Below, piece by piece: positions 2,000 to 58,668 of a stretch of 64,000 bases of DNA. Source of the DNA: Faecalibacterium prausnitzii (lineage in GTDB: Bacteria > Bacillota > Clostridia > Oscillospirales > Ruminococcaceae); contig NZ_CP065377.1 of assembly GCF_019967995.1 (NCBI RefSeq), forward strand, positions 2,728,001 through 2,792,000, in the 5' to 3' direction. How positions within the stretch are numbered: the first letter of the stretch is position 1; every line of letters starts with the position of its first letter. The notes below the pieces were generated by a model. The model was not told where the DNA came from. It saw nothing but the letters and a program-made list of their open reading frames with translations, and did no database searches. The position numbers and the translations under genes were made by a program.

Positions 2000-3643
2000 A
2001 TGACCGCCGTGATCTACGCCCGCTATTCATCTGACAGCCAGAGAGAAGCGTCCATTGAAGGACAGCTGCGCGACTGCAAGGACTACGCCGAGAAGAACGG
2101 TATCACCGTGGTCGGCACCTACATCGACCGTGCCTACTCTGCCAAGACGGATGACCGCCCGGACTTCCAGCGGATGATTAAGGACAGCGCAAAGAAAATC
2201 TTCGACGTAGTTCTGGTCTGGAAGCTGGACCGCTTTGCCCGGAACCGATTCGATGCCGTGAACTACAAGTACCAGCTGGAAAAGAACGGTGTCCATCTGG
2301 TGTCTGTCATGGAACCCATCTCGCAGGGGCCTGAAGGCATTATGGTGGAGAGTATGCTGATTGGCATGGCGGAATACTATTCCGCCGAACTCGCCCTGAA
2401 AGTGGCGCGCGGTGAGCGCGAAAATGCCCTCCAGTGCAAGTACAACGGCGGTGTGGTGCCGCTGGGCTTCACCATCGGCAAGGAGGACAGGCTGTACCAT
2501 ATCGACCCGGAAACGGCTCCTATTGTGCAGGAGATCTTCAGCCGGTACGCCGACGGCGAACCGGCTGAGAAGATTGCCGCATCCCTGAACGAGCGCGGCC
2601 TGCGTACCCGCACCGGGAAGCCGTTCGTAAAGAACAGCTTCTTCCAGATCTTCCGCAACCGCCGCTACATCGGCGAATACCGCTACAAGGACATTGTGAC
2701 GCCGGGCGGCATTCCGGCTATTGTTGATCAGGACTTGTTCGACCGGGTGCAGCAGCGTTTCGAGCAAAACAGGATCGCCCATGGTCGGCCTGCAAAAGAG
2801 GATGTGAGCTATCTGCTGACCACTAAGCTGTTCTGCGGCAAGTGCGGCACCCTGATGGGCGGCGAAAGCGGCACCAGCCACATGGGAAACACCTACTATT
2901 ACTACAAGTGCGGCAACGCCAAACGCCACGGCAAGGCGCACTGCGACCTGAAAGCCATCCGCAAAGAGCCTCTTGAACGGTTCGTGGTGGAAACTGCTAT
3001 TAAGGTGATTTTCAGCGATGAAATCATCGAACGGCTGATAGATTTGGTCATGGATGCCCAGCAGCAGGAGAACACCCGGCTGCCTGTCCTGAAAGACCAG
3101 CTCAGGGACACGGAGAAGCGGCTGGCAAACCTTCTGGAAGCCATTGAACAGGGCATCCTGACCCCGACCACCAAGCAGCGTTTGGACGAGCTGGAAGCCC
3201 GGAAAGAAGCTCTGAACACCAGCATTCTGGAAGAAGAGCTGAAAAAGCCCGTCTTGACCCGTGAGTGGATTCGGTTCTGGCTTGAAAAATTCCGCAAGGG
3301 TGACGTGGGCAGTACGGAACACCAGCGGCAGATCATTGATACCTTTGTCAACTCGGTCTACGTCTTTGATGATCGGGTCGTGCTCAACTTCAACTTCACG
3401 GACGATGCCAAGACGGTCACTCGTGAGGAAGTGTTGGGTTCGAGTGCTGTGGACAATGCTCCACCATCACCCCATGAAAAAAGACACCTCGCCATGAGGT
3501 GTCTTTTTTCATCTTCCGAACACCCATCCCGATCCCACGGCAATGCCGCTCAGGGAAGGTGCCGTTCCACAAAATCGCCGATGTCGGCAAAGACTTCGGC
3601 CCGGTTCGTCTCCACCAGAAGCTCGTGCCGGGCACCGGGGTAG
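2000..3643 (+). CDS. large serine recombinase
   Basis: A 547-residue site-specific recombinase with ATG behind AAGGAGGTG. Residues 1-150 are the resolvase catalytic domain (YARYSS, Ser10 as expected nucleophile; KLDRFARNRFD). About 155-265 is the 'Recombinase' DNA-binding domain. About 276-315 is a zinc ribbon (CGKC...CG...C), followed by a Leu/Glu-rich coiled coil. These are the parts of enzymes that integrate and excise mobile elements through a 5'-phosphoserine intermediate. The last 50 or so residues read through a hairpin (3477-3511) and 94 bases into the antisense of the next gene. The native stop may therefore have been lost, or the gene may truly end inside foreign sequence. The catalytic and DNA-binding parts look intact. 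Confidence 0.9.
   Translation: MTAVIYARYSSDSQREASIEGQLRDCKDYAEKNGITVVGTYIDRAYSAKTDDRPDFQRMIKDSAKKIFDVVLVWKLDRFARNRFDAVNYKYQLEKNGVHLVSVMEPISQGPEGIMVESMLIGMAEYYSAELALKVARGERENALQCKYNGGVVPLGFTIGKEDRLYHIDPETAPIVQEIFSRYADGEPAEKIAASLNERGLRTRTGKPFVKNSFFQIFRNRRYIGEYRYKDIVTPGGIPAIVDQDLFDRVQQRFEQNRIAHGRPAKEDVSYLLTTKLFCGKCGTLMGGESGTSHMGNTYYYYKCGNAKRHGKAHCDLKAIRKEPLERFVVETAIKVIFSDEIIERLIDLVMDAQQQENTRLPVLKDQLRDTEKRLANLLEAIEQGILTPTTKQRLDELEARKEALNTSILEEELKKPVLTREWIRFWLEKFRKGDVGSTEHQRQIIDTFVNSVYVFDDRVVLNFNFTDDAKTVTREEVLGSSAVDNAPPSPHEKRHLAMRCLFSSSEHPSRSHGNAAQGRCRSTKSPMSAKTSARFVSTRSSCRAPG
3477..3511. terminator. bidirectional terminator between recombinase core and lysophospholipase
   Basis: Stem AAAAGACACCTC/GAGGTGTCTTTT with loop GCCAT, flanked by A and T runs. 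It lies about 40 bases after the stop of the minus-strand lysophospholipase, and inside the last codons of the recombinase frame. Confidence 0.8.
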
Positions 3644-4479
3644 AACTTGACCTGCACATCCCGCATCCCGGCATCCTTCATGCTCTGCACGGCCCGCCGG
3701 ACGCCCGCGCTGCGCTCGCCCACCGGGTCGGCATCACCGGCCAGGAAGAGTACCGGCAGATCTTTCGGCATCCGGGCCAGAAAGGCCGGGTCGTACAGCC
3801 GCAGGATGCCCGTGAACATGCTGTAATAGGCATTCAGCGTAAACGTGAAGGTGCACCGCTCATCGGCGAGGTACTTGTCCACCTCGGCAGGGTCGCGGTT
3901 GAGCCAGTCGTGGGTGGTGCGGCCCTCCAGCCCCTTGTTGTAGCCCAGGAACGAAAGCTCCGCCACCAGCCTGCTGCGATGCTGCCAGCCGAAAAAGACC
4001 GCCAGCACCCGGCAGACCGTGCGGGCAAACGCGACCAGCGCTTTCGGCTGGAAGCCGGTCCCCAGGATGATGGCACCGTCCAGCTCACTGCCCCACTCGC
4101 ACAGATACTGCCGTGCATAGAACGAGCCCATGCTGTGGCCCAGCAGGAAATACGGCACACCGGGGTAGAGCTTTTTCGTCAGAACCGTCATGGCGTGAAG
4201 GTCATCCAGCACTGCCCGGTTGCCGTCCGGCTCGGCAAAATAGCCGTAGTCGGCCTTGGTCCGGATGGACCCGCCATGGCCCAGATGGTCGTTTCCGGTC
4301 ACGAGGATGCCCCGTGCGGCGAGGTACTCGGCCAGCGGCTTGTAGCGGTCGATGAACTCCACCATCCCGTGCGAGAGCTGTACGATGGCGCGCACTTCGC
4401 CCTCCGGCACACAGCGGAACGCATGAAGCATCCGCCCCGGTGCGCTCGACGGCAGCGTAAAATCGATCATCTGGCTCAT
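3550..4479 (-). CDS. alpha/beta hydrolase, lysophospholipase/monoglyceride lipase type
   Basis: A 309-residue protein. The ATG follows AAGGAGAAG. The fold is the serine-aminopeptidase-like alpha/beta hydrolase (Hydrolase_4) family. The nucleophile elbow is GHSMGS (Ser116), an acidic residue lies in LAGDADPVG (Asp249 or Asp251), the histidine is in ARHELL (His285), and the oxyanion region is QLSHGM (35-40). Family members cleave lysophospholipids or monoacylglycerols in the cytoplasm; the exact substrate is not shown here. There is no signal peptide. The gene lies 29 bases downstream of the AbrB-type gene on the same strand and may be co-transcribed with it. Its 3' end is overlapped by the antisense recombinase tail. 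Confidence 0.85.
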   Translation of the reverse strand: MSQMIDFTLPSSAPGRMLHAFRCVPEGEVRAIVQLSHGMVEFIDRYKPLAEYLAARGILVTGNDHLGHGGSIRTKADYGYFAEPDGNRAVLDDLHAMTVLTKKLYPGVPYFLLGHSMGSFYARQYLCEWGSELDGAIILGTGFQPKALVAFARTVCRVLAVFFGWQHRSRLVAELSFLGYNKGLEGRTTHDWLNRDPAEVDKYLADERCTFTFTLNAYYSMFTGILRLYDPAFLARMPKDLPVLFLAGDADPVGERSAGVRRAVQSMKDAGMRDVQVKFYPGARHELLVETNRAEVFADIGDFVERHLP

Positions 4480-4507
4480 AGCGTCTTCTCCTTTTTGCGG
4501 CCCGTGC

Positions 4508-4759
4508 TCAGAGGGCACCGATCTTCTTCCGGCAGGCGGAGCAGATGCAGTAGCCTGCGAACTGCACGGCCCGCTCATCGACGGTCCCGCAGAAGTCGCA
4601 GCTTCCCTTCGGGCGGTACTTTTTGAGGACGATGGCGTCTCCATCAACGAAGATTTCGAGCTTTGCATCCGTTTCCAGCTTCATGCTGGTGCGCAGCTCC
4701 TTGGGCAGAACGATCCGCCCCAGCGCATCGATCCCGCGAACGATTCCTGTACTTTTCAT
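4508..4759 (-). CDS. AbrB/SpoVT-type transcription regulator with zinc ribbon
   Basis: An 83-residue protein. Residues 1-46 are the swapped-hairpin AbrB DNA-binding domain (STGIVRGIDALGRIVLPKEL, then a beta strand LEIFVDGDAIVLKK). The tail holds two CxxC-like pairs (CDFCG...CICSAC) that should bind zinc. Proteins of this shape are transition-state or housekeeping regulators in clostridia. A clear promoter lies upstream and the gene is followed by the lysophospholipase, perhaps a two-gene unit. Target genes cannot be told from sequence. Confidence 0.88.
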   Translation of the reverse strand: MKSTGIVRGIDALGRIVLPKELRTSMKLETDAKLEIFVDGDAIVLKKYRPKGSCDFCGTVDERAVQFAGYCICSACRKKIGAL

Positions 4760-4872
4760 TTTGTGCTTCTCCTTTTTCTAATTCGCACTGCTTCTCGTAT
4801 TTTCCTCATTTTTCCGGGCCACGCTGCCCGGCCACAAATCCGGTGATAGGAAAATTGTTCCAGTGCTTCATT

Positions 4873-4901
4873 AGTATACAAAATAGTTCCTGCTTCGTCA
4901 A
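4873..4901 (-). promoter_or_regulatory. sigma-A promoter of the AbrB-type gene
   Basis: On the minus strand TTGACG (4901-4896), a 17-base spacer and TATACT (4878-4873). The leader to the ATG is about 113 bases. Confidence 0.7.
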
Positions 4902-4953
4902 CGCTTGCGGTCCTTTTCGACAAAAACTTCCCGGATGTTTTTGGAATGGGCAC

Positions 4954-4985
4954 AAAAACGCCCGAAGGCAGTCCGCCTCCGGGCG
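4954..4985 (-). terminator. intrinsic terminator of the lipoprotein gene
   Basis: Stem CGCCCG/CGGGCG (4959-4964 with 4980-4985) with an inner AGGC/GCCT, followed on the minus strand by five T residues. It is 25 bases beyond the lipoprotein stop. Confidence 0.75.
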
Positions 4986-5010
4986 AAAAGTTCCGGTTCT
5001 TGGGATTTTT

Positions 5011-6504
5011 TTAAGATTTTTTGCTGCTCGTCCCACGCTTCGAGCCGTTCCGTCCCGGCACCAGAAACAGGGCATCTTCGTCCGGGATGGGGCACGTTTT
5101 GCCGCCGCAGCAGGCAGAGAGCGACACGGCGACCAGAGACACCTTTTCCGTATCCGACAGGTGCCCGTAGACCCAGATCTCCGCCGAGGCCCCCGGCTTC
5201 AGCACGGTGCTCCGGGCCGACGTGACAACGTAGCAGGGATATTCGTCCGTCTGCGCTCCGTTCGTCAGATAACAGAGCGAACCGATCCAGCGGCTCTTTG
5301 TGCCGTTCTGGTAAAGCCGGTCTTCCCGGAACGTCCCATCCGCAGCATCCGTAAACTGTGCGGCGGTATTTTCCAGGTCCAGCGTCTCCTTTGTGTGGTT
5401 CTTCACCTGGAAGTGCACACAGAAACCGGACGGCGTCAGGGTCTGCCCCAGCACAGTAAACTCCGGGAACGCCGCGGACGTATCCGGCTCCTGCACTTCT
5501 GACGAAGCAGGCGTCCCGGACGCTGCCGGTGTTTCCGGGGCCGACGGTGCGCTGGATGCAGGCGGCGAGGCCGGTGCCTCGGATGCAGCGGGGTGTTCGG
5601 ACCCAGCTGACGTCTCCGGCTGCGAGGACGGTTCGGACACAGCCGGGCTGCCCGGCGATGCCGTGGGCTGCGAAGCGGCGGGCGGCTCCGAGACGGCAGG
5701 GCGTTCCGACGCGGCCGGGCGCTCAGAGCTGGCCGGCGGCTCCGGCTTTGCGGACGGTGCCGAAGCGGCGGTACTGCCCGACGGCGCAGCCGACTCCGCA
5801 GGGGCCTGCGGCTTCTTCTTCGGCGTCAGGCTGCCGATGGCCTGCTCCTTCCACAGAAAATCCGCCCGTGTCCAGCTGCCTTCGCTGGCCGGGAGGAATA
5901 CATACCCATACGCCACCGCGCTCTGCCCCGGCTGCAAGGCTTCGGCTGCGCTTTCAAGGGCTGCAATGACCGGCTTTTTCACCACGGTCTCCTGCGTCGT
6001 CCGGAGCACCGCCGTCAGATGTTCTGCGGCCTTGCCCGCAGCGACCCGGTCCGCAGACATGCCGTCCACTGCGTTGTCCACCGTCACGTTCCCAAGCGAT
6101 GCGCTGGTGTTGAACGCATGGACGACCTGTTCCGTCGTATTTTCCACGCGGACTTTGACCACGATGAGGGTGCCCTCCTGCCCGGAGCAGACCGCCGATA
6201 CGCTGGTGTAGTCCATCGGCTCACAGCTGAGAAAGTCTTCCACCTCCGGTTCCTGCGGCGATTGAGCTTCCGACTCAGACACGGCTGTCGAACTGGACAC
6301 CGATTCTGGTTCCGAAGGCGCGGGTGTCGCCGGGGAAGAAGCCGTGTCCTCGTCCGTTCTGCCCGCCGCCGGAGCAGACGCGGGCGGTTCCGGTGCAGCT
6401 GCCCCGCCTCCGCCGCAGCCGGTCAGCAGCAGAACGGCCAGACAGAGCAGCACCGCAAGTGCCCTGCTCTTTTGCCGCACTGCATCGAACGATTTTGGTT
6501 TCAT
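5011..6504 (-). CDS. secreted lipoprotein with Ser/Ala/Pro-rich linker, unknown function
   Basis: A 497-residue protein. The start is placed at an ATG behind GGAGG. Residues 1-30 are a lipoprotein signal with lipobox LLTGC followed by Gly residues, so it should be anchored to the outer face of the membrane. A first beta-rich domain (about 85-210; VVKVRVENTTEQVVH) and a second one at the C-terminus (about 345-480; VHFQVKNHTKETLDLEN) resemble DUF4352/DUF5067-type immunoglobulin-like domains that share the VxN(H/T)T signature. Between them is a low-complexity linker of imperfect 8-10 residue units (PAASE, PAVSE, PASS), probably spanning the wall. The role is unknown. Confidence 0.75.
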   Translation of the reverse strand: MKPKSFDAVRQKSRALAVLLCLAVLLLTGCGGGGAAAPEPPASAPAAGRTDEDTASSPATPAPSEPESVSSSTAVSESEAQSPQEPEVEDFLSCEPMDYTSVSAVCSGQEGTLIVVKVRVENTTEQVVHAFNTSASLGNVTVDNAVDGMSADRVAAGKAAEHLTAVLRTTQETVVKKPVIAALESAAEALQPGQSAVAYGYVFLPASEGSWTRADFLWKEQAIGSLTPKKKPQAPAESAAPSGSTAASAPSAKPEPPASSERPAASERPAVSEPPAASQPTASPGSPAVSEPSSQPETSAGSEHPAASEAPASPPASSAPSAPETPAASGTPASSEVQEPDTSAAFPEFTVLGQTLTPSGFCVHFQVKNHTKETLDLENTAAQFTDAADGTFREDRLYQNGTKSRWIGSLCYLTNGAQTDEYPCYVVTSARSTVLKPGASAEIWVYGHLSDTEKVSLVAVSLSACCGGKTCPIPDEDALFLVPGRNGSKRGTSSKKS

Positions 6505-6689
6505 CGCCTCCACCTCCGCCTGAATGTGTTGAAATGTGTCGTTTTTATTTGACCGTTTTCTGCGCCGTTTGTCAATCGTTTCGGCAGCGTTTCGCTCCAA
6601 AGTTTTTCTCCGAAAATTGGGCAGATTCGACGATTTTGGTCGTTTTCGGGAGAGAACGCCCCCTTCCGGCCGTTCTTCGCGTCTCCTCG

Positions 6690-6718
6690 TTGACAAAATC
6701 GCGCTGAACAGTTAAACT
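6690..6718 (+). promoter_or_regulatory. sigma-A promoter of gltX
   Basis: Perfect TTGACA (6690-6695), 17-base spacer, TAAACT (6713-6718); 53 bases before the gltX start. Confidence 0.75.
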
Positions 6719-6771
6719 AAAGGGTAGCAATTCACAAATTTATTTGCCGATATAGATAAGGAGCGTTTTTT

Positions 6772-8241
<1,470 letters not shown>

Positions 8242-8259
8242 ATCTTCTAAAATTTCCAA

Positions 8260-8297
8260 AAAGCTCTGCGGTTTTTGTACGCCGCAGGGCTTTTTTC
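8260..8297 (+). terminator. intrinsic terminator of gltX
   Basis: Stem AAGCTCTGCGG/CCGCAGGGCTT (8260-8270 with 8282-8292) followed by a T run. Confidence 0.85.
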
Positions 8298-8402
8298 TTG
8301 GTTTTAGCAAAAGGATGCCGCTTCGCTTCACCCTCCCAAAAACCGCCCGGCGGCCGCGCTACAGTATATGCACAAGGCGCGGGAAACAGAACAACACAAA
8401 CG

Positions 8403-49984: not shown

Positions 49985-51277
49985 TTACTCTTTGATTTTC
50001 CGGCACTCGATGTAATACCGTTTTTCTTCCGCATGGCCCATGCTGAAGGTCTTGCGGGGCAGCACACCGCCCATCACGACGCCCTTGAACAGGTCGCTCT
50101 TGTCGAACGGCGGCAGCAGGAAGGCCACGCCGCCCTGCTTGCACAGGGCGCGGACCGCAGGCTCATCGTGGACGTAATCCACGCGGGCCTCAATGTGGCG
50201 GGCCATGAAGTATTCGATGAAGGCGTCGATGGTGCCGACGGTCAGCGGGGCCACGGGATGCTCGAAGCTGAGCACATTGGCGACGTGGGGGCCTGCCAGC
50301 GTGAAGGACTGCTGCCGGGCATCGCCGAAGCAGATGCCTGCATTGTGGGAGTCGCTCCACGCGATGAGGGCCAGCAGCACCGCGCCGCAGTCCACGTTGA
50401 ACAGCACCCGGTGGATCGGCTCGATCTCGATGGCGGGCGAGTGGACGTTGCACACCTCGGCCAGGCACCAGCGGGCCGGGTGGTTTGCCTGCTGCTCCGG
50501 GGGCAGGGTCTGCTTCAGCTCCTCCCAGTAGGCCTTGGCCGATGCCAGCGAGTGGTTGCCGTCGCCCACGGCCAGCGTCAGCGGGGCTGCGCCCCTGGCC
50601 TGCGGATACCGGGCATCAAAGACTTCCTGACGGCCCAGCCCCTGCAGGGCCGTGTCGATCTGGGCCAGCAGAGCCGGGTCTTCCACGGCCCAGCCCGCGA
50701 TGTGCCCGCCGCCCAGCATCAGTTCGCCTTCGTAGACCTTGCGCAGCGCGTCTTTCTTCGCCCCGATGGGCTCGATGAGGGTGCAGTCCGGGTCGTCGGC
50801 CAGCATCATGACGTGGGGCGTTTCCAGGCTGGCCCCGCGCCGGACGGCCATCCGGGGTGGGATGCGGCTCTCGACCGTGTGTTCGCTGGGGCGCACCTCC
50901 GGCTGGGCACCCTCGGCGTAGCTGTAGGCTTCAAGGTCGATCTTCCCCACCAGCCCCTGCCGGATGCGGCCGCTCTGCTCGGTGCGCTCCACATAAATAA
51001 AGCCGTCCACCGCACGGGTCAGCACCGTGCGGAGATAGTCGTCCATGGTCTCATGGATCTTCTGGATGCGGCCGGTCACGCCGCTCTCTTCCAGATACAC
51101 TTCCGGCAGGACCAGGTTCAGGGTGCTGGGCGAACCTGCCGCCGTCCGGGCCGCTTTTTCCCAATAGGAGCGGTCGCTCGTAAACTGATCGCAGGCCACG
51201 CAGCCCCACTGCTCCAGCGGGATATTCTCCGCCGGAAGCAGGATGTGTGCCGGAGAAAAGCACGATGTTTTGTTCAT
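49985..51277 (-). CDS. DUF1015 family protein
   Basis: A 430-residue protein of the DUF1015 family, recognised by [14 protein letters not shown] near residue 235. It also has the [12 protein letters not shown] stretch and the order RYYIEC at the end. The function of the family is not settled, and it is often encoded beside D-3-phosphoglycerate dehydrogenase and serine genes, which are not here. Cytoplasmic. Preceded by the DUF4015-like gene on the same strand. Confidence 0.85.
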
Positions 51278-51321
51278 ATCACATTCCTCCCTCTCGCGTT
51301 ATTGAAAGGAAACCGTAGTTT

Positions 51322-52443
51322 TTATTCATAGGATCCGGCCGCATTGTCCCGCACGACCACATGCTCGACGCCCGCTTCGGTCTGCGCCTGCACCAGAGCA
51401 GCGCGCTCCTCGGCGGTCATGGTGGAGGCCGAAGGCACCCGCACCACAAGGTTCTTCACGCCCAGCTGCGCGGCCGGGACGCCCAGCGTGCTGGAGGTGT
51501 CGGCCACCTCGGCCAGCGTATAGCTGTACCACAGGGTCACACGGTTGCCGAAGCGCTGCTCCCAGACCGCCATATCGGCCCGCAGCTGGTCGGCACGGCT
51601 CACGCCGTTGGTGGTGCCATAGTCCTGCTTGCTGCTGGTGGAGGCCGGGAACTGGACGTTCTCCAGCACCACCTGTTCGAACCCGGCGGTGTGCAGCTCG
51701 TCGATGAGGTCGCCGATGTACTGGACGGCTGCGTCCGCATAGGGGTTCAGCCAGGGCTTGCCGTCGGCAGACGCCTTGTTGTCCAGCCAGAGATAGGCCT
51801 GCCCCTTATATCCAATGGCCATGGCGTGGTCGGCGCGGGCACCGGCCGGGTCGCGGAAGGCGGCGAGCTTCGCCACCGGGATGAGGCCCTCTTCCCGGAA
51901 GATAGCGGCCACCCTGGCCGGGTCCACGGTCACGCTGGCCGGACTGGCCGCAGCGGCGGGCACCTGAGACGCATAATAGACCACGCCGGTGGCGTCCTTC
52001 AGGGTCACGACGGCATATTTCACGCCCTGCGAGGCCAGCTGCTGCGCCGCAGCGCGGATGGAGGCCTCCTCCGTCAGGGCCGTGATGTCGGCCTCGGCCC
52101 AGCTGCCGTCCACGATAGCGGTGCCGTCCACAGCGGGCGTCACCACCTCCGGCTGCACCTCCGAAGAAGCGGCCGGTTCACTCGCCGCAGAGGACGCCGG
52201 GCGCTCCGCCACGGACGATGCGCTCGCGCTGGCGGGGGAGGAGGCGGAAAGATCCCGGTTGCGCACCACGGTGTACCAGGTATGCGTTGCCCAGTCCAGC
52301 ACATGGGGAGCTGCCAGCCAGGCCGCGCCCAGCATCACGAGGACCAGCACGGCGATGCCGATCCCCTTTTTCACCCGCATCTCGCGGCTGTAAAAGCTGC
52401 GCCGATAGCGCTTGACCTTCTGGCGTTTCGGATATTTTGCCAT
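51322..52443 (-). CDS. membrane-anchored DUF4015-like (putative glycoside hydrolase) protein
   Basis: A 373-residue protein with a Lys/Arg-rich cytoplasmic start, one helix (about 28-48), a Ser/Ala-rich linker (about 66-95), and a TIM-barrel-like outside domain. ITALTEEASIRAAAQQLASQG, YAVVTLKDATGVVYY, YLWLDNK..GKPWLNPY and QVVLENVQFP fit the DUF4015/putative glycoside hydrolase family. The Asp/Glu acids of a retaining enzyme are not certain. ATG behind GGGAGGGTGG. 26 bases after rnfA, so possibly co-transcribed. Confidence 0.75.
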   Translation of the reverse strand: MAKYPKRQKVKRYRRSFYSREMRVKKGIGIAVLVLVMLGAAWLAAPHVLDWATHTWYTVVRNRDLSASSPASASASSVAERPASSAASEPAASSEVQPEVVTPAVDGTAIVDGSWAEADITALTEEASIRAAAQQLASQGVKYAVVTLKDATGVVYYASQVPAAAASPASVTVDPARVAAIFREEGLIPVAKLAAFRDPAGARADHAMAIGYKGQAYLWLDNKASADGKPWLNPYADAAVQYIGDLIDELHTAGFEQVVLENVQFPASTSSKQDYGTTNGVSRADQLRADMAVWEQRFGNRVTLWYSYTLAEVADTSSTLGVPAAQLGVKNLVVRVPSASTMTAEERAALVQAQTEAGVEHVVVRDNAAGSYE

Positions 52444-52469
52444 AATCAACCACCCTCCCTTGGGGTCTT

Positions 52470-53078
52470 TTACAAGATCACAGAATGGCCGGTAAAGCCA
52501 TAGATGGCCAGTGCCAGCACCCCGATGTAGATCAGCGTGACGGGCAGGCCGCGGAATGCCTCCGGGATGGCCCGGCTGCGCAGACGGTTCTGTGCTTCCG
52601 TCACCAGCATGACGGCCAGCAGATAGCCCAGGCCGCTGCCCAGGCCGAAGCCGAGGGATTGTTCCAGCGTGAAACTCTGGGTGCGCTCGACCAGCACTGT
52701 GCCCAGCACACCGCTGTTGACGGCGGCCACAGGCAGGATGCGGATGAGCTGGCCGCTGCGGGGGCCTTTTGCCAGCTTGAGGACCAGCAGCTCAAACAGG
52801 CAGACCGCCGCGATGCAGGTCAGATACATCACCGGGCGCAGCTGGGCGCGGTTGGGCAGCGGGGCAATGAAGCTGCCCGCAAAATAGACCAGCGGAGCCA
52901 CCAGCACCTGCGTGATGCAGAGCATCAGGGCAAACCACCAGCTGCTCGTCCGCTCGTCGCCGACGAGCTGGACCAGCCGGGACACGCCCAGACTGCGGGT
53001 GAAGACGGCGTTCTGGGCAAAGATGGCCAGAACGGCATAGTTGAAGAAGACGCCTACCAGGTGCAGCACGTCGCTCAT
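52470..53078 (-). CDS. rnfA: RnfA-like membrane protein lacking cluster cysteines
   Basis: A 202-residue protein with six helices, homologous to RnfA/RsxA/NqrE. NYAVLAIF...FTRSLGVS aligns with the helix that in E. coli RsxA (recalled from memory) reads NNFVLVKFLGLCPFMGVS: the Cys is Ala24 here. The second site, LPLITTNCAVLG in RsxA, reads LPVAAVNSGVLG: the Cys is Ser122. Both ligands of the intramembrane [2Fe-2S] cluster are therefore missing. Its ATG overlaps the rnfE stop (ATGA). Function may differ from electron transfer. Confidence 0.8.
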   Translation of the reverse strand: MSDVLHLVGVFFNYAVLAIFAQNAVFTRSLGVSRLVQLVGDERTSSWWFALMLCITQVLVAPLVYFAGSFIAPLPNRAQLRPVMYLTCIAAVCLFELLVLKLAKGPRSGQLIRILPVAAVNSGVLGTVLVERTQSFTLEQSLGFGLGSGLGYLLAVMLVTEAQNRLRSRAIPEAFRGLPVTLIYIGVLALAIYGFTGHSVIL

Positions 53079-53800
53079 TGTTCTGCCTCCTTCCGGTTCT
53101 CCTGCGGATGCACGGCCAGATAGCCGCGCGCCTCATTTTTCAGGTATTTCTGCCGCTTGCGGGCCAGTGCGCGCCAGATGGCGCACACCACGCCCAGCAC
53201 GATGAAACCGCCCGCCGGCATCCCGGCCATGGGCAGGACAGAGCGGCCGAGCGGGATGCCGAACACGCTGCCGAGGGCCAGCCACTCGCGCACACAGCCC
53301 AACAGCAGCAGGATCAGCGCATAGCCCAGCGTGATGCGCAGACCTTTGGAAACAGCCTTGTGCATCGTTTCCTGCACACGGCCGAAGCGGTAGGTCAGCA
53401 GCGGCTCCACCACCAGCAGAGGCAGGTAGATGCCCAGCGTCAGCAGGTCGGTGCCGAAGAGGGCGTTCAGGATGGGATACACCGCCAGATACACCACGGC
53501 GGCGCTGCCGCTGTAGACAAAGGCGCGGGGCAGCAGCTTCTTTTCCAGCTCTTCGGGGACCGGGCGCTCGTCCCGCAGGGGGCACAGACGGCTGAGCAGG
53601 CAGGCCAGCATCCGCGAGGGCGTCAGCAGCAGGGCCACGGCCACCGCCAGCATCACGGCGTTTCTGCCGCTGGTGGCCAGCACCACCAGCGGAGCCAGGC
53701 CCATGCCCTGCATGACGACCGGGTTATTTTTGAAGACGCGGTCATGGTGTGCGAACTTTTCGGGGTCGCGGGTGATCATTTCTGCAACGTGACGTTTCAT
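53075..53800 (-). CDS. rnfE: RnfE-like membrane protein lacking cluster cysteines
   Basis: A 241-residue relative of RnfE/RsxE/NqrD. VFKNNPVVMQGMGLAPLV aligns with WKNNSALVQLLGLCPLL of E. coli RsxE (recalled from memory): Cys becomes Ala36. The second site, IPLIVTNCIVVGR, becomes LPLLVVEPLLTYR: Asn-Cys becomes Glu132-Pro133. The fold and REWLALGSVFG are kept. The start overlaps the rnfD stop (ATGA). Confidence 0.8.
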   Translation of the reverse strand: MKRHVAEMITRDPEKFAHHDRVFKNNPVVMQGMGLAPLVVLATSGRNAVMLAVAVALLLTPSRMLACLLSRLCPLRDERPVPEELEKKLLPRAFVYSGSAAVVYLAVYPILNALFGTDLLTLGIYLPLLVVEPLLTYRFGRVQETMHKAVSKGLRITLGYALILLLLGCVREWLALGSVFGIPLGRSVLPMAGMPAGGFIVLGVVCAIWRALARKRQKYLKNEARGYLAVHPQENRKEAEQ

Positions 53801-54801
53801 TCCGCATCCTCCTTCCAGCCCAGCAGACGGTACAGGCGGGTCTCGGTGCGGTCCAGCCAGCCGGAAATGCTGTTGACCGTGAGCAGTGCAAAGCAGACCC
53901 CGGTATCATAGACGCCAAAGTAGCGGAAGCCCATGGTCGCGGCACCCACCAGCACACCGTACAAAATGCGCCCGATGCGGTGATGGGCACAGGTATAGGG
54001 CTCGTTCAGCAGGAAGACCGCGCTGAACAGCATCGCGCCGGTCAGCAGCTCATCCCGCACACACTGCAAACGGGGGAGCAGGCTGGCCGCAAAGGAAGTG
54101 TCCAACAGGCCCACCTGCCGGGGGAACAGAAACGCGATGAGGGCGCTCGTCACCAGAAAGCTGACGGCGGCACTCAGGCGGGTATCCTTCTGATACCACA
54201 GGAACAGCCCGCAGGCCAGAATGACCAGCGCCGCACCGGTGCCCATAGGGGCGGCATACTCGCCCAGCACCAGCGAGATCGGGCTGAGGTTCAGGATGCC
54301 GCCGCTGCGCAGGGTCCGGGAGATGGTATCCGACACCGGCACAGCCGACGCATCCCACAGGGGGATGGCGGTATACGGCTGGGGGTACTGGAACACCTGT
54401 TCCGGCCAGGACACCGCCGCGATGACGTAGCCCACCGCCGCCGGGTGGAACGGGTAGCTGCCGTAACCGCCGAAGACCTCCTTGCCGATAAAGACACCGG
54501 CCAGGACCGCCGCAATGAGGACGTACCAATCCACCGTGGCGGGCATGAGCAGCGCGATGAGGAGCGCGAAGCTCTCGCTGGAAAAATCGTTGGACTGGTA
54601 AACGCGCCGGCGCAGCAGTGAGACCAGACGGTCGCACAGATTGCCGGTGATCACCGCCGCGCCGCAGAGCAGCAACGGCCGCAGCCCGTAGAAATAGCAG
54701 GACATGCACAGCAGCGGGACGGCCATCCAGCAGACATGCCGGTAGTAGCGGCCCGTCCGGGTCAGTTCCCGCTGCTGCGCCCGGATCAAAGTTTCATCCA
54801 T
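53797..54801 (-). CDS. rnfD: RnfD-like membrane protein
   Basis: A 334-residue protein with about 10 helices, homologous to RnfD/RsxD/NqrB. The GYGSYPFHPAAVGYVI and LLTGAMLFSAVFLLNEPYT segments align with E. coli RsxD (YGGLGQNPFNPAMIGYVV, LLSGATMLGAFF; recalled from memory). The covalent-FMN region, DGISQATPL in RsxD, reads DTISRTLRS, so the Ala-Thr of the attachment motif is not kept. It begins 13 bases after rpe and is translationally coupled with rnfE. rnfB, rnfC and rnfG are absent nearby. Confidence 0.8.
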   Translation of the reverse strand: MDETLIRAQQRELTRTGRYYRHVCWMAVPLLCMSCYFYGLRPLLLCGAAVITGNLCDRLVSLLRRRVYQSNDFSSESFALLIALLMPATVDWYVLIAAVLAGVFIGKEVFGGYGSYPFHPAAVGYVIAAVSWPEQVFQYPQPYTAIPLWDASAVPVSDTISRTLRSGGILNLSPISLVLGEYAAPMGTGAALVILACGLFLWYQKDTRLSAAVSFLVTSALIAFLFPRQVGLLDTSFAASLLPRLQCVRDELLTGAMLFSAVFLLNEPYTCAHHRIGRILYGVLVGAATMGFRYFGVYDTGVCFALLTVNSISGWLDRTETRLYRLLGWKEDAE

Positions 54802-54814
54802 GGCTCAGCACCTC

Positions 54815-55465
54815 TCACAGCGCAGCCAGACGACGCACAGCCGCTGCCGGGTCTGCCGCACCAAAGACGGCGCTGCCCGCCACCAGAATGTCCGCACCGG
54901 CCTCCACGCAGAGCGGAGCCGTGGCGTCGTCCACGCCGCCGTCCACTTCCAGAAGGAAATGGGCGCTCCGTCTGGCCCGCTCTTCGCGCAGCCAGCGCAG
55001 CTTTTCCAGCGCCGAGGGCATGAACTTCTGCCCGCCGAAACCCGGCTCCACGCTCATGACCAGAACGAGATCCAGCTGGTCCAGATACGGAGCCAGCGCC
55101 TCCGGGGCCGTGCCCGGCTTGATGGTCAGGCCGACCTTGCACCCCTGCGCCTTGATGGCGTCGATGGTCTGCTGGATATCGTCCTCACATTCCAGATGGA
55201 AATTCTGCAGCGTGGCCCCCGCCTTTGCAAACGGCTCGGCATAAGCCAGCGGGTGGCTGATCATCAGGTGCACATCGTAGAACGCCGCGGGCATCCCCTT
55301 GTGCAGGCTCTTCAGCACCGGCACACCAAAGCTGATGTTGGGCACGAAATGGCCGTCCATCACATCGTAGTGCAGCATCTGCGCCCCGGCGTCCAGCACC
55401 ATCCGGCAGTCTGCGCCCAGCTTCGTGAAATCGGCTGAAAGGATCGAAGGACTTACAATCGTCAT
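54815..55465 (-). CDS. rpe: ribulose-phosphate 3-epimerase
   Basis: A 216-residue TIM barrel of the pentose phosphate pathway, interconverting ribulose 5-phosphate and xylulose 5-phosphate. Metal-site residues lie in the usual places: PSILSADF, DVMDGHFVPN, VHLMI, MSVEPGFGGQ and VDGGV. The ribosome-binding site is GGAG. It is the first gene of a run with rnfD-rnfE-rnfA. Confidence 0.95.
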   Translation of the reverse strand: MTIVSPSILSADFTKLGADCRMVLDAGAQMLHYDVMDGHFVPNISFGVPVLKSLHKGMPAAFYDVHLMISHPLAYAEPFAKAGATLQNFHLECEDDIQQTIDAIKAQGCKVGLTIKPGTAPEALAPYLDQLDLVLVMSVEPGFGGQKFMPSALEKLRWLREERARRSAHFLLEVDGGVDDATAPLCVEAGADILVAGSAVFGAADPAAAVRRLAAL

Positions 55466-55655
55466 GTTCGTTTGTACTCTCCGTTATTTTTTCAAAAAGT
55501 TTTGCCATGCGTCCTGTTTTTGTGCTCCGCACAGGGACAGAATTCAGGGTAGACATAGCTATTCTTAGTTTACATGAAAACGCAGAAAAAATCAAATCCG
55601 CAGCCGTGTTTTTCACGGAAAAGTCGCAAAAATCCCTTTTGCGGCCCCCATCATG

Positions 55656-55699
55656 CAAAAAACAGCCAAGCCGTTCCACGCTACGGAACAGCCTGGCTG
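55656..55699 (-). terminator. intrinsic terminator of the second two-component operon
   Basis: Outer CAGCCA/TGGCTG (55663-55668 with 55694-55699) and inner GTTCC/GGAAC (55673-55677 with 55685-55689), then T6 on the minus strand. Confidence 0.85.
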
Positions 55700-55707
55700 T
55701 GCAGGAT

Positions 55708-57222
55708 TCAGTTGACCGGCTTCATGCTGGCGGGGTCTTCCACCGGCACCGGACGGCCCGCTTCGTCGGGCAGACGCTTGATCTCGCCGGGGTTGGGCGG
55801 GCAGGTGGGCAGGGTGAACACGAACCGGCACCACTCGCCCTGCTGGCTCTCGACCCGGATCTGGCCGCCGGACAGGTTGACCAGCACCTTGCAGATGTTC
55901 AGGCCCAGGCCTGCGCCGCGGGCGTGGAGGCCGCGGGAGCGGTCTTCCTTATAGAAGCGCTGGAACACATATGGCAGCGCCTCTGGGCTGATGCCCTGGC
56001 CGGAATTCCAGATGGAGACCTCCACCTCCGGGCCCAGCTTCTCGACGTGGAACCGGATGGTCCCGCCCGCCGGGGTGAACTTGATGGCGTTGTCCAGAAG
56101 GTTGTACGCCACCTGATGAATGAGGTCGGGGTCGGCATAGACCAGAACTTTTTCGTCCATGGTCAGGCCCTCCAGCTCGATCATGCCGTCGTTGATCCGC
56201 TGTTCTGCCGAGAGCGCCACGCCGGTCAGGGTCTCCCAGATGTTGAACATCCGGGCGTTCACCTGATACTCGCCGCTTTCCAGCTTGGACAGGTCCAGCA
56301 TGTTCTGGATGAGCCGGGCCAGACGGCCGGTCTCCTCACTGACCAGCTGCAAATAATGGTTCTGCATGTCGGGCGGGATGGTGCCGTCCAGAATGCCGTC
56401 GATGAAGCCCTTGATGGTGGTCATCGGGGTGCGCAGCTCGTGGGCGATGTTGCCCATGAACTGGCCGCGTGAATTGTCGTTGGACTGGATGTTTTCGGCC
56501 ATCTGGTTGAAGGTGTGGGCCAGGTCCACGACCTCGCCTTCGCCCTCGACCCCCTCAACGCGGACCGAGAGATCCCCGCCGCCGAACCGCTGCGCAGCCT
56601 CGGTGATCTTTTGCAGCGGGTCGGTGAGCCGCCGCATCAGGACGCTTGTCAGCACACTGGCGCAGAGCAGCATGATGCAGGCCGAGAAGAAGAAGTTCGA
56701 CCAGAACTCCTCCTTGAAATCGGTCAGCCGTGCACCGGACGAGCACAGGAAGAGATAGCCGCTGCAAGCGCCGTTGTCGTCCATCATTTTCCGCACGGAA
56801 ACGTAGCTTTTTTCGGTCAGGACGCCATCCAGCGTGCTCAGGACATGGTAGGGCTTCTCATCCCCCACCCTGGCCATCAGGGCTTGCGGCACGGCATCCT
56901 CCGCCAGCTGCGCCGGGTTGGAGGTGATGAGGACATGGCCGTCCTCATCGGTCAGGAACAGATAGGCTTCGGCGCTCTCGCCGATGATCTCCAGCTTGGT
57001 GCTCAGCGCGTCCAGTTCCTCGCCCTTGGGCAGGGCCGCCTGCTGGACCACGTAGTCTGCCGCCCGCCGGGTGACCTCGGCCACGCTGTCCAGCGCTTCG
57101 TACCGCTCCTGCGCAAAGTAGCGGTTGAACAGGACCCACTCCGAGCAGCCCATCACCGCCGTGCCCAGCACCAGAAGGGTCGCCACCACCGAAAAGAAGG
57201 TGACGGAAATACTTTTGCGCAT
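55708..57222 (-). CDS. two-component sensor histidine kinase
   Basis: A 504-residue kinase. Helices at about 8-30 and 175-195 enclose an extracellular sensor. A HAMP follows (RRLTDPLQKITEAAQRFGGG), then the H box NIAHELRTPMTT. N box NLLDNAIKFTPAGG, NSGQGISPE and GAGLGLNICKV are all present. Its ATG shares a base with the stop of the response regulator (TAATG), so translation is coupled. The signal is unknown; it may be of the PhoR/WalK class. Confidence 0.95.
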   Translation of the reverse strand: MRKSISVTFFSVVATLLVLGTAVMGCSEWVLFNRYFAQERYEALDSVAEVTRRAADYVVQQAALPKGEELDALSTKLEIIGESAEAYLFLTDEDGHVLITSNPAQLAEDAVPQALMARVGDEKPYHVLSTLDGVLTEKSYVSVRKMMDDNGACSGYLFLCSSGARLTDFKEEFWSNFFFSACIMLLCASVLTSVLMRRLTDPLQKITEAAQRFGGGDLSVRVEGVEGEGEVVDLAHTFNQMAENIQSNDNSRGQFMGNIAHELRTPMTTIKGFIDGILDGTIPPDMQNHYLQLVSEETGRLARLIQNMLDLSKLESGEYQVNARMFNIWETLTGVALSAEQRINDGMIELEGLTMDEKVLVYADPDLIHQVAYNLLDNAIKFTPAGGTIRFHVEKLGPEVEVSIWNSGQGISPEALPYVFQRFYKEDRSRGLHARGAGLGLNICKVLVNLSGGQIRVESQQGEWCRFVFTLPTCPPNPGEIKRLPDEAGRPVPVEDPASMKPVN

Positions 57223-57920
57223 TACTGACGCACCTCGAACTTATAGCCCACGCCCCAGACGGTCTTGAGCTCCCACTTGTCGGAGGCACCGGCCAGCTTC
57301 TCGCGCAGGCGCTTGACATGGACGTCGATGGTGCGGCTGTCGCCGTAGTATTCGAAGCCCCACACCTCGTCCAGCAGCTGGTCGCGGGTATAGACGCGGT
57401 TCGGGTGGGAGGCCAGACAGTTGAGCAGCTCCAGCTCCTTGGGGGGAGCCTCCACCACCTTGCCCTTGACCCGCAGCTCGTAGCTGTTCATATCCAGGCG
57501 GAGGTTGTCGAACTCGATGACGCCCTCGGTGCTCTCGGCAGCCGCCGTGCTGGTCTGGCAGCGGCGCAGCACCGCCTTGATGCGGGCCACGACCTCTTTT
57601 GCGTCAAAGGGCTTGACCATGTAGTCGTCCGCGCCCAGTTCCAGGCCCAGCACCTTGTCAAAGGTCTCGCCCTTGGCCGTGAGCATCATCACCGGCGTAT
57701 TGCCCAGCTTGCGGATGCGGCGGCAGACTTCCAGACCGTCCATCCTGGGCATCATCACATCCAGCAGGACCATGTCCGGCTTGACCTGATTGAACTTTTC
57801 CAGACCTTCCTCGCCGTCGTTGGCGATGGTGACCTGATAGCCCTCCTTGGTCAGATAGAGCCGCAGCAGCTCGCAGATATTGACGTCGTCATCCACGACA
57901 AGGATCTTTTCGTTTGCCAT
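57222..57920 (-). CDS. OmpR/PhoB-family response regulator
   Basis: A 232-residue regulator. Receiver at 1-120: VVDDD, phospho-acceptor Asp54 in LDVMMP, LTAKGE, MVKPFD. Winged helix at about 135-230 (PPKELELLNCLASHPN, VWGFEYYGDSRTIDVHVKRLR). The start is set at the ATG behind AGGAGG; an ATG seven codons earlier has no site. A terminator-like hairpin lies in the leader. Confidence 0.96.
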   Translation of the reverse strand: MANEKILVVDDDVNICELLRLYLTKEGYQVTIANDGEEGLEKFNQVKPDMVLLDVMMPRMDGLEVCRRIRKLGNTPVMMLTAKGETFDKVLGLELGADDYMVKPFDAKEVVARIKAVLRRCQTSTAAAESTEGVIEFDNLRLDMNSYELRVKGKVVEAPPKELELLNCLASHPNRVYTRDQLLDEVWGFEYYGDSRTIDVHVKRLREKLAGASDKWELKTVWGVGYKFEVRQ

Positions 57921-57951
57921 GAGTGTTCCTCCTGTATCCATGTAGCGTTCT

Positions 57952-57977
57952 TAAAAATCGTCCCACAGCCTGGGACG
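57952..57977 (-). promoter_or_regulatory. terminator-like hairpin in the response regulator leader
   Basis: Stem CGTCCCA/TGGGACG (57959-57965 with 57971-57977) followed on the minus strand by ATTTTTAA, about 32 bases before the start. A perfect TATAAT lies upstream on the same strand (about 58012-58007), so the hairpin is inside the transcript. Confidence 0.5.
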
Positions 57978-58095
57978 GGTGTTTTCAAAGAGTCCCTATC
58001 TTCTATTATACGGAACAGTTATGACAAAATAAAGAAGGTTTTGTATGATTTTTGGGATTTGGGTGGAGGTTTCCGCAAACTGGTTGTGTTCTCCG

Positions 58096-58124
58096 TTGCT
58101 CTGGCCCATGGATTGTGGTATAAT
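58096..58124 (+). promoter_or_regulatory. sigma-A promoter of the ruvC gene
   Basis: TTGCTC (58096-58101), 17-base spacer, perfect TATAAT (58119-58124), 32 bases before the start. Confidence 0.75.
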
Positions 58125-58155
58125 GGATTGATTATAATAGGAAAGGTATCGCAGA

Positions 58156-58668
58156 ATGAGAGTTTTGGGCATCGACCCTGGGTATGCCATCGTGGGATGG
58201 GGCGTTGTGGACTATGCAGGCAACCGGTTTGCGCCGGTGGATTTCGGCGCGGTGTGCACCGATGCCGGGGTGCCGTTCGAGCGGCGGCTGGATGAGGTGT
58301 ATGTCGGCATCCGGGAGGTCATCGAGCGGACACAGCCGGAGGTGCTGGCGATCGAAAAGCTGTTCTACCAGCACAACCAGACTACCGTCATCGGCGTGGC
58401 CGAGGCGCGCGGCGTCATCCTGCTGGCGGCGGCGCAGGCGGGCCTGCCCATCTACGAGTACACCCCCATGCAGGTGAAACAGGCCGTCACCGGCTACGGC
58501 AAGGCCGTGAAGAAACAGGTGCAGGAGATGACCCGCATCCTGCTGCATCTGCCTGCGATCCCCAAACCGGACGACACCGCTGATGCTCTGGCGATGGCCA
58601 TCACGTTCTGCCACACCAACGGCAACCAGCTCAACCGGTTCCGCCGCCAGGGCGTGGGGCCGATCTGA
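58156..58668 (+). CDS. ruvC: Holliday-junction endonuclease RuvC
   Basis: A 170-residue RNase H-fold nuclease that cuts Holliday junctions together with RuvAB. Acidic catalytic residues are in GIDPGYAIVGWG (Asp7), VLAIEKLFYQ (Glu66 region) and KPDDTADALAMAI (Asp pair near 140). Ribosome-binding site: AGGAAAGG. It is followed by a dispersed repeat and then ruvA and ruvB. Confidence 0.97.
   Translation: MRVLGIDPGYAIVGWGVVDYAGNRFAPVDFGAVCTDAGVPFERRLDEVYVGIREVIERTQPEVLAIEKLFYQHNQTTVIGVAEARGVILLAAAQAGLPIYEYTPMQVKQAVTGYGKAVKKQVQEMTRILLHLPAIPKPDDTADALAMAITFCHTNGNQLNRFRRQGVGPI

Follow-up and report, generated by a model that had tools for sequence, protein, structure and literature searches.

The window analysed here, a stretch of 64,000 nucleotides of the Faecalibacterium prausnitzii chromosome (contig NZ_CP065377.1, positions 2,728,001 to 2,792,000), carries on its minus strand, at 52470-54801, three open reading frames (ORFs) that encode relatives of the membrane subunits RnfD, RnfE and RnfA of the Rnf complex. 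They lie where a first-pass annotation, made by a model from the DNA letters, had placed such a trio, and we refer to them as D', E' and A':

53797..54801, minus strand: D' (rnfD-like), 334 amino acids; PF03116, RnfD/NqrB fold, no covalent flavin mononucleotide (FMN) motif
53075..53800, minus strand: E' (rnfE-like), 241 amino acids; PF02508, RnfE/NqrD fold, no ligand Cys
52470..53078, minus strand: A' (rnfA-like), 202 amino acids; PF02508, no ligand Cys

All three are confirmed as full-length Rnf/Nqr relatives. Their scores exceed the Pfam cut-offs (190.7 bits for D' with PF03116, and 88.7 and 80.1 bits for E' and A' with PF02508) and miss the curated NCBIfam cut-offs for rnfA (68.8 vs 229.3 bits), rnfD (138 vs 207.05) and rnfE (46.8 vs 213.4), and the predicted structures of D' and E' match the RnfD and RnfE folds. 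At E <= 0.01 PF03116 is the sole match of D', and the Amt/Rh family PF00909 gives none. The chromosome, a single contig of 2.94 Mb, gives two PF03116 and four PF02508 matches, which are accounted for by the trio and by a normal rnfCDGEAB cluster. This second cluster, which the first-pass annotation had proposed to look for, begins about 15 kb from the trio.

The residues of the trio were mapped by alignment to the canonical RnfA, RnfE and RnfD of the same genome, to relatives and to solved Rnf/Nqr structures. The codons at the cofactor sites are as follows:

52980..52982, minus strand: A' Ser33, first RnfA [2Fe-2S] Cys position
52713..52715, minus strand: A' Ser122, second RnfA [2Fe-2S] Cys position
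53693..53695, minus strand: E' Ala36, first RnfE [2Fe-2S] Cys position
53402..53407, minus strand: E' Glu132-Pro133, second RnfE Asn-Cys position
54445..54447, minus strand: D' His119, riboflavin Asn (Acetobacterium woodii RnfD N123)
54325..54327, minus strand: D' Thr159, column of the FMN-bearing Thr (A. woodii RnfD T156), S-x-A-T context missing
54001..54003, minus strand: D' Glu267, riboflavin Asp (A. woodii RnfD D249)

In this alignment none of the four [2Fe-2S] ligand positions holds a cysteine (Ser33 and Ser122 of A', Ala36 and Pro133 of E'), and Glu132 of E' replaces the Asn that precedes the second RnfE ligand. The cysteines that the two proteins do contain, at positions 54, 88 and 93 of A' and 67, 73, 169 and 206 of E', are not ligands. 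The first-pass annotation had stated that all four ligands are replaced, and this stands as far as the absence of cysteine goes; its RnfA Ala24, the residue after Asn23, was a misalignment for Ser33, while its RnfA Ser122 and RnfE Ala36 and Glu132-Pro133 agree with the alignment to canonical subunits and relatives. It had also read the covalent FMN motif of RnfD as missing, and indeed D' has no S-x-A-T, Thr159 alone occupying the column of the FMN-bearing Thr. Both riboflavin residues, given as N123 and D249 of A. woodii RnfD in the part of PMC11889175 used here, are altered to His119 and Glu267. There is no RnfC, RnfG or RnfB gene at the window locus and no NqrF or NqrC gene in the operon, which consists only of rpe, D', E', A' and a DUF4015 gene. 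According to the same part of PMC11889175, A. woodii mutants in the cluster cysteines, the RnfG FMN site or the riboflavin residues did not grow autotrophically, and the mutant enzymes lost ferredoxin-dependent NAD+ reduction. The module has none of the four cluster ligands and no covalent FMN motif, its riboflavin residues are changed, RnfG and RnfB genes are missing, and the A. woodii mutants were inactive; the known Rnf/Nqr electron path is therefore closed in the module as encoded, which is what the first-pass annotation had deduced.

Relatives of the trio were collected as follows. A family search with D' against 148 genomes gave some match, canonical RnfD included, in 138, and 60 stretches around chosen matches were read, one of which was an unusable 20-base stretch. 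From a public genome scan the best 80 of 324 candidates encoding a relative were kept as loci with titles; among their genera are Anaerotruncus, Angelakisella, Merdimmobilis, Bittarella, Faecalispora and Hydrogenoanaerobacterium. The 143 loci combined represent 129 distinct D' proteins, and as they were selected by likeness to D', the clade counts describe what accompanies a D'. A wider D' profile search covered 291 genomes of the class and 398 of the phylum, from which 30 and then 21 further loci were opened; D'-type loci among these belong only to the same family and to one other family of the order, and some of the loci end before RnfE or RnfA. In a quick maximum-likelihood tree of 108 of the 129 D' proteins, picked for diversity, and 30 canonical RnfDs, one branch separates the two (SH-like approximate likelihood ratio test 100). 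The Cys-less forms, for which a single clade had been raised as a question by the first-pass annotation, accordingly make up one branch of the D' tree.

The loss of cofactor sites is clade-wide and no local oddity. A cysteine is found at the first RnfA site in 1 of 122 sequences (locus L176 only), at the second RnfA site in 67 of 122, and at either RnfE site in 0 of 125, window included; no D' locus has cysteines within three residues of all four ligand positions. An alignment with cysteine at the four sites, the result that the first-pass annotation had named as contradicting it, did not occur. Canonical subunits in the same alignments keep the ligand cysteines (10/10 for RnfA and 41/41 for RnfE), a count that excludes the Cys-deviant loci L237 and L238 and the shorter first copies of L134, L140 and L148. 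Because cysteine is so frequent at the second RnfA site and so rare at the others, Ser122 is a feature of the window's lineage, while the other three losses are shared by the clade. At the FMN site A-T-[P/V/A] is present in 1 of 129 D' compared with 48 of 48 canonical RnfDs, and [S/T]-x-A-T in 1 of 129 compared with 41 of 48; a lone Thr stands in the FMN Thr column in 12 of the 129. Structural residues of E' are kept, Arg171 in 99% and Glu172 in 98% of sequences.

Many of the relatives have an additional gene, C', upstream of D'. Among 86 loci scored for gene order (80 from the public scan and 6 by place) 51 have the arrangement rpe-C'-D'-E'-A'-DUF4015, 15 have the same minus C', and 8 have rpe-C'-D'-E'-A'; the rest are 3 canonical loci and 9 of other or partial form. 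C' is related to RnfC, the closest solved structure for the C' of locus L085 being the RnfC of C. tetanomorphum (E 1e-32). Two CxxCxxCxxxC ([4Fe-4S]) motifs are present in all 67 C' proteins, and a GGAGFP-like flavin loop is absent from every one of them, the loose pattern GGxx[F/Y]P matching once, elsewhere in the protein, in L105. Canonical RnfC has the iron-sulfur motifs in 30 of 30 cases and the strict flavin loop in 25, with close variants in the other five. At the D' loci of the first (family) set, the set scored for them, there is no RnfG-like or RnfB-like gene, and in the complete public-scan loci the spacing between D' and E' is too tight for an RnfG gene in between. The riboflavin Asn of D' is present in 67 of 67 proteins accompanied by C' compared with 32 of 62 without it, and an acidic residue occupies the RnfE Asn107 position at 39 of 57 loci without C' compared with 2 of 65 with it. 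On the tree, riboflavin-Asn losses number none on C' branches and four on C'-less branches (branch-length test p 0.08). These associations of C' with the riboflavin Asn and with the acidic residue are suggestive and involve few independent events. With only three changes of C' on the tree there are too few pairs, and we discarded the link between C' and riboflavin as independent evidence. The window lineage has apparently lost C' too.

The three multi-helix subunits are also intact and subject to purifying selection. Trio DNA is matched in 30 of 31 genomes of the genus, its own included, in a few of them in pieces only, and over 27 genus relatives with all three ORFs the ratio of non-synonymous to synonymous substitution rates (dN/dS) is 0.13-0.40 for D', 0.18-0.53 for E' and 0.12-0.46 for A'. 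In thirteen genomes the module is present, whole or in part, with no RnfB-model match above cut-off (weaker ferredoxin-like matches to this model are present in all 148 genomes) and no PF02508 gene beyond the module's own. Ten of the thirteen are only 66-89% complete, so that canonical Rnf may simply have been missed in the assembly; G133 is an example, as RnfB is present in G017 of the same genus. In G022 there is a second RnfD match, of unread context. The clean cases, at least 94% complete, are G102, with C', D' and E' together and A' elsewhere, and G068 and G087, with D' and one E'-type gene, apart. Given the dN/dS values and the thirteen genomes without recognisable canonical Rnf, the module is a selected, non-canonical complex and not a decaying copy. 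With three of these genomes at least 94% complete, it is very unlikely to serve canonical Rnf as an obligate accessory.

In the window the trio is flanked by two genes and a hairpin:

54815..55465, minus strand: rpe, ribulose-phosphate 3-epimerase; PF00834; conserved module neighbour by synteny
51322..52449, minus strand: DUF4015 protein; PF13200; apparent N-terminal membrane helix; conserved neighbour by synteny, candidate partner only
55662..55700, minus strand: terminator-like hairpin of 18 pairs, upstream of rpe

On the minus strand the genes run rpe, D', E', A' and DUF4015, with 4-bp overlaps between D' and E' and between E' and A' and spacers of 13 bp (rpe-D') and 20 bp (A'-DUF4015). As the hairpin lies upstream of rpe, the five genes are likely a single transcription unit. 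The scan for terminator-like sites found 5 against 3.4 expected in shuffles, and the terminator and promoter scan at the module region found no sigma-70-like promoter. A flavin riboswitch was considered as a hint of flavin transport and dropped: Rfam has no match in window positions 50000-58500, and ten loci gave only RNase P RNA and tRNA.

In comparison with the Rnf complex (RnfCDGEAB), D', E' and A', and C' in relatives, are homologous and in the same relative order, and the predicted folds of D' and E' are equal. The module locus differs in having no RnfG or RnfB, no A/E [2Fe-2S] ligands and no FMN motif in D'; the flavin loop of C' is missing and the riboflavin residues of the window are altered. 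D'E'A' is likewise equivalent to the multi-helix core of Na+-NQR, namely NqrB, NqrD and NqrE, from which it differs in that NqrC and NqrF are missing at the locus and the cofactor ligands are gone. In a functional sense the module would be placed outside the Rnf pumps. Faecalibacterium duncaniae A2-165 has an rnfDEA operon (CG447_09840-830) with the same gene set and order, as well as a separate rnfCDGEAB, and its rnfDEA is probably orthologous to the window trio, as judged from gene set and order. In the part of PMC10781979 used here, these are described as 'two putative rnf operons' and given a role as NADH:ferredoxin oxidoreductase; the residues of the window argue against such a role for rnfDEA. 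A literature search for a cofactor-less Rnf paralog found nothing on lost cofactor sites in the parts of the papers it covered, where the term rnfDEA occurs only in PMC10781979.

We tentatively favour the interpretation that D'E'A' is a paralogue of the Rnf membrane core which gave up its redox chemistry and was retained for a non-redox role as a transporter or channel. Solute or ion transport, which the first-pass annotation had named among its options, is the likeliest function, judging solely from fold and conservation. Passage could lead through D', which has the RnfD fold, next most similar to ammonium/urea channels, its flavins being gone and His and Glu lying in the former riboflavin pocket. 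A more specific scheme, which is possible but distinctly more doubtful, is that the Rnf core has reverted to a cofactor-free transporter, in which solutes or ions would cross D' where the flavins used to sit, with A'E' as a gate and C'D'E'A', with iron-sulfur and perhaps riboflavin only, as an intermediate stage. As an alternative to passage through D', the A'E' dimer may retain the alternating-access motion that has been proposed for RnfA/E (in the part of PMC11889175 used here), with Ser and the acidic Glu132 at the former cluster site. C'D'E'A' in relatives is a fuller form, with two [4Fe-4S] motifs and the riboflavin Asn, and with neither FMN motifs nor A/E cluster ligands.

Several observations weigh against a non-redox transporter. 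The likeness to Amt and urea channels is described, in the part of PMC12174285 used here, for RnfD/NqrB in general and is not special to D', which differs from these channels in having no PF00909 match. Equivalents of the A. woodii ion-pair gate are not kept: RnfA E88 is D or E in 0 of 122 sequences, RnfE R67 is R or K in 14 of 125 and E115 is D or E in 64 of 125, and the three never occur together, which led us to reject reuse of the A. woodii Na+ gate. The acidic switch and the absence of C' each rest on about three changes on the tree. The reduced sets of G068 and G087 indicate that some genomes can do without the complete trio. Of the 14 genomes that have the module or part of it 5 contain Amt, compared with 5 of the 7 that have none of it (Fisher p 0.18); genomes with the module thus do not clearly lack Amt, and the difference is too small to conclude that D' has replaced it. 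Finally, the presence of C' in relatives points to some members of the family still handling electrons.

This last point leads to the strongest rival, in which the forms with C' would be redox devices of reduced length. Electrons would pass from a carrier through the two [4Fe-4S] clusters of C' and the riboflavin of D' and would end at an acceptor in the membrane or serve redox sensing, the window trio working with another partner or being a late remnant. The invariant iron-sulfur motifs of C', the riboflavin Asn that is universal in its company and the confinement of riboflavin-Asn losses to C'-less branches all fit this. However, the strict flavin loop is absent from every C', the A/E ligands are gone, no RnfG or RnfB accompanies the D' loci scored, the window lineage has His and Glu in its riboflavin pocket and no C', and the link between C' and riboflavin goes back to three tree changes and is not independent. 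We consider this rival unlikely, although it deserves to be kept in view. The module could instead serve canonical Rnf, as an assembly factor or as an alternative arm swapped for RnfD/E/A. The nearness of rnfCDGEAB in the same genome and the published annotation joining both operons (PMC10781979, in the part used) speak for this, but the conserved site adjoins rpe and not rnf, and the thirteen genomes with module parts, among them the clean cases G068, G087 and G102, have no recognisable canonical Rnf. An accessory role is improbable, and the assembly factor that the first-pass annotation had listed as an option is unlikely, with the reservation that ten of these genomes are incomplete.

It is similarly improbable that the module and DUF4015 share a cell-envelope task in which DUF4015 replaces RnfG as the outward-facing partner. 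A DUF4015-like ORF is present at 97 of 129 loci, some of them incomplete, mostly directly after A', and a partner role would suit its apparent membrane helix and the residues that all 97 sequences share. Yet DUF4015 also lies downstream of rpe where the module is missing (L273, L274, L277, L278, L279 and also L281), and G068, G087, G102, G353 and G374 have all or part of the module and no DUF4015. Since each occurs without the other, their adjacency seems to reflect the surroundings of rpe, and the occurrence of rpe-DUF4015 in module-free genomes weakens DUF4015 as a substitute for RnfG. A decaying duplicate without function, lastly, is very improbable: residues essential to Rnf are gone (PMC11889175, in the part used), as decay would predict, but the ORFs are full-length in 27 genus relatives with dN/dS of 0.12-0.53, Arg171 and Glu172 of E' are conserved, and the module is kept across one family and a second family of the order, partly even in genomes of 0.7-1.0 Mb.

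The route of the ions through Rnf/Nqr is disputed, RnfA/E and RnfD/NqrB both having been proposed in the parts of PMC11889175 and PMC12174285 used here. Relatives of common gut bacteria would offer a natural core that lacks the cofactor sites, in which ion or solute passage could be measured apart from electron flow. The family shows a redox machine that has lost its parts to different degrees, with FMN motifs and A/E cluster ligands gone throughout and C' gone in about half of the loci; the more specific transporter scheme, if true, would make the module a naturally occurring Rnf/Nqr engine free of redox chemistry. In Pfam-level annotation, and in at least one paper (PMC10781979, in the part used), the operon is counted as part of a redox pump that conserves energy, with consequences for metabolic models of Faecalibacterium and its relatives.

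Some further observations concern individual loci. At L119 (G068:C4:173500-179500), L120 (G087:C2:50000-56000), L090 and L091, in genomes of 0.7-0.9 Mb, only D' and a single E'-type PF02508 gene are kept, on different contigs, and it is conceivable that a homodimer stands in for the A/E pair in such reduced genomes. In the module-free group L273, L274, L277, L278, L279 and L281, where the module is absent, or absent at this place, two loci have one small gene between rpe and DUF4015, which looks like a site between rpe and DUF4015 that either lost its rnf-like genes by excision or never received them. The residues of DUF4015 that are invariant in 97 of 97 sequences (Lys151, Asp200, Trp221, Trp233 and Pro236 in the window), along with a basic tail before the apparent membrane helix, are what a functional binding or active site would be expected to show. 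In the same genome as the window, an FMN_bind cluster lies at G000:C1:2452794-2454115 (L008, L009, L014) in open frames of 383 and 160 amino acids, and the one ApbE match lies apart from it, at C1:2079475; this is possibly a system for extracellular flavin-based electron transfer.

Two loci deviate from the canonical cysteine pattern outside the D' clade. L238 (G322:C28:20500-30586) has an rnfC-D-G-E-A operon at 3372-7822 that resembles the module in having lost three of the four A/E cysteines, independently, and differs in keeping RnfG and the FMN motifs; there is no rnfB within the 10 kb read, and its RnfD sits among canonical RnfDs in the tree. We interpret it as an independent loss of the ferredoxin entry branch. 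L237 (G239:C9:68500-80500) has a complete rnfCDGEAB operon at 2887-8350 with Gly at the first RnfA ligand position, a Cys one residue earlier, and Gly at the second RnfE ligand position, and its genome G239 has a second RnfD match at C21.

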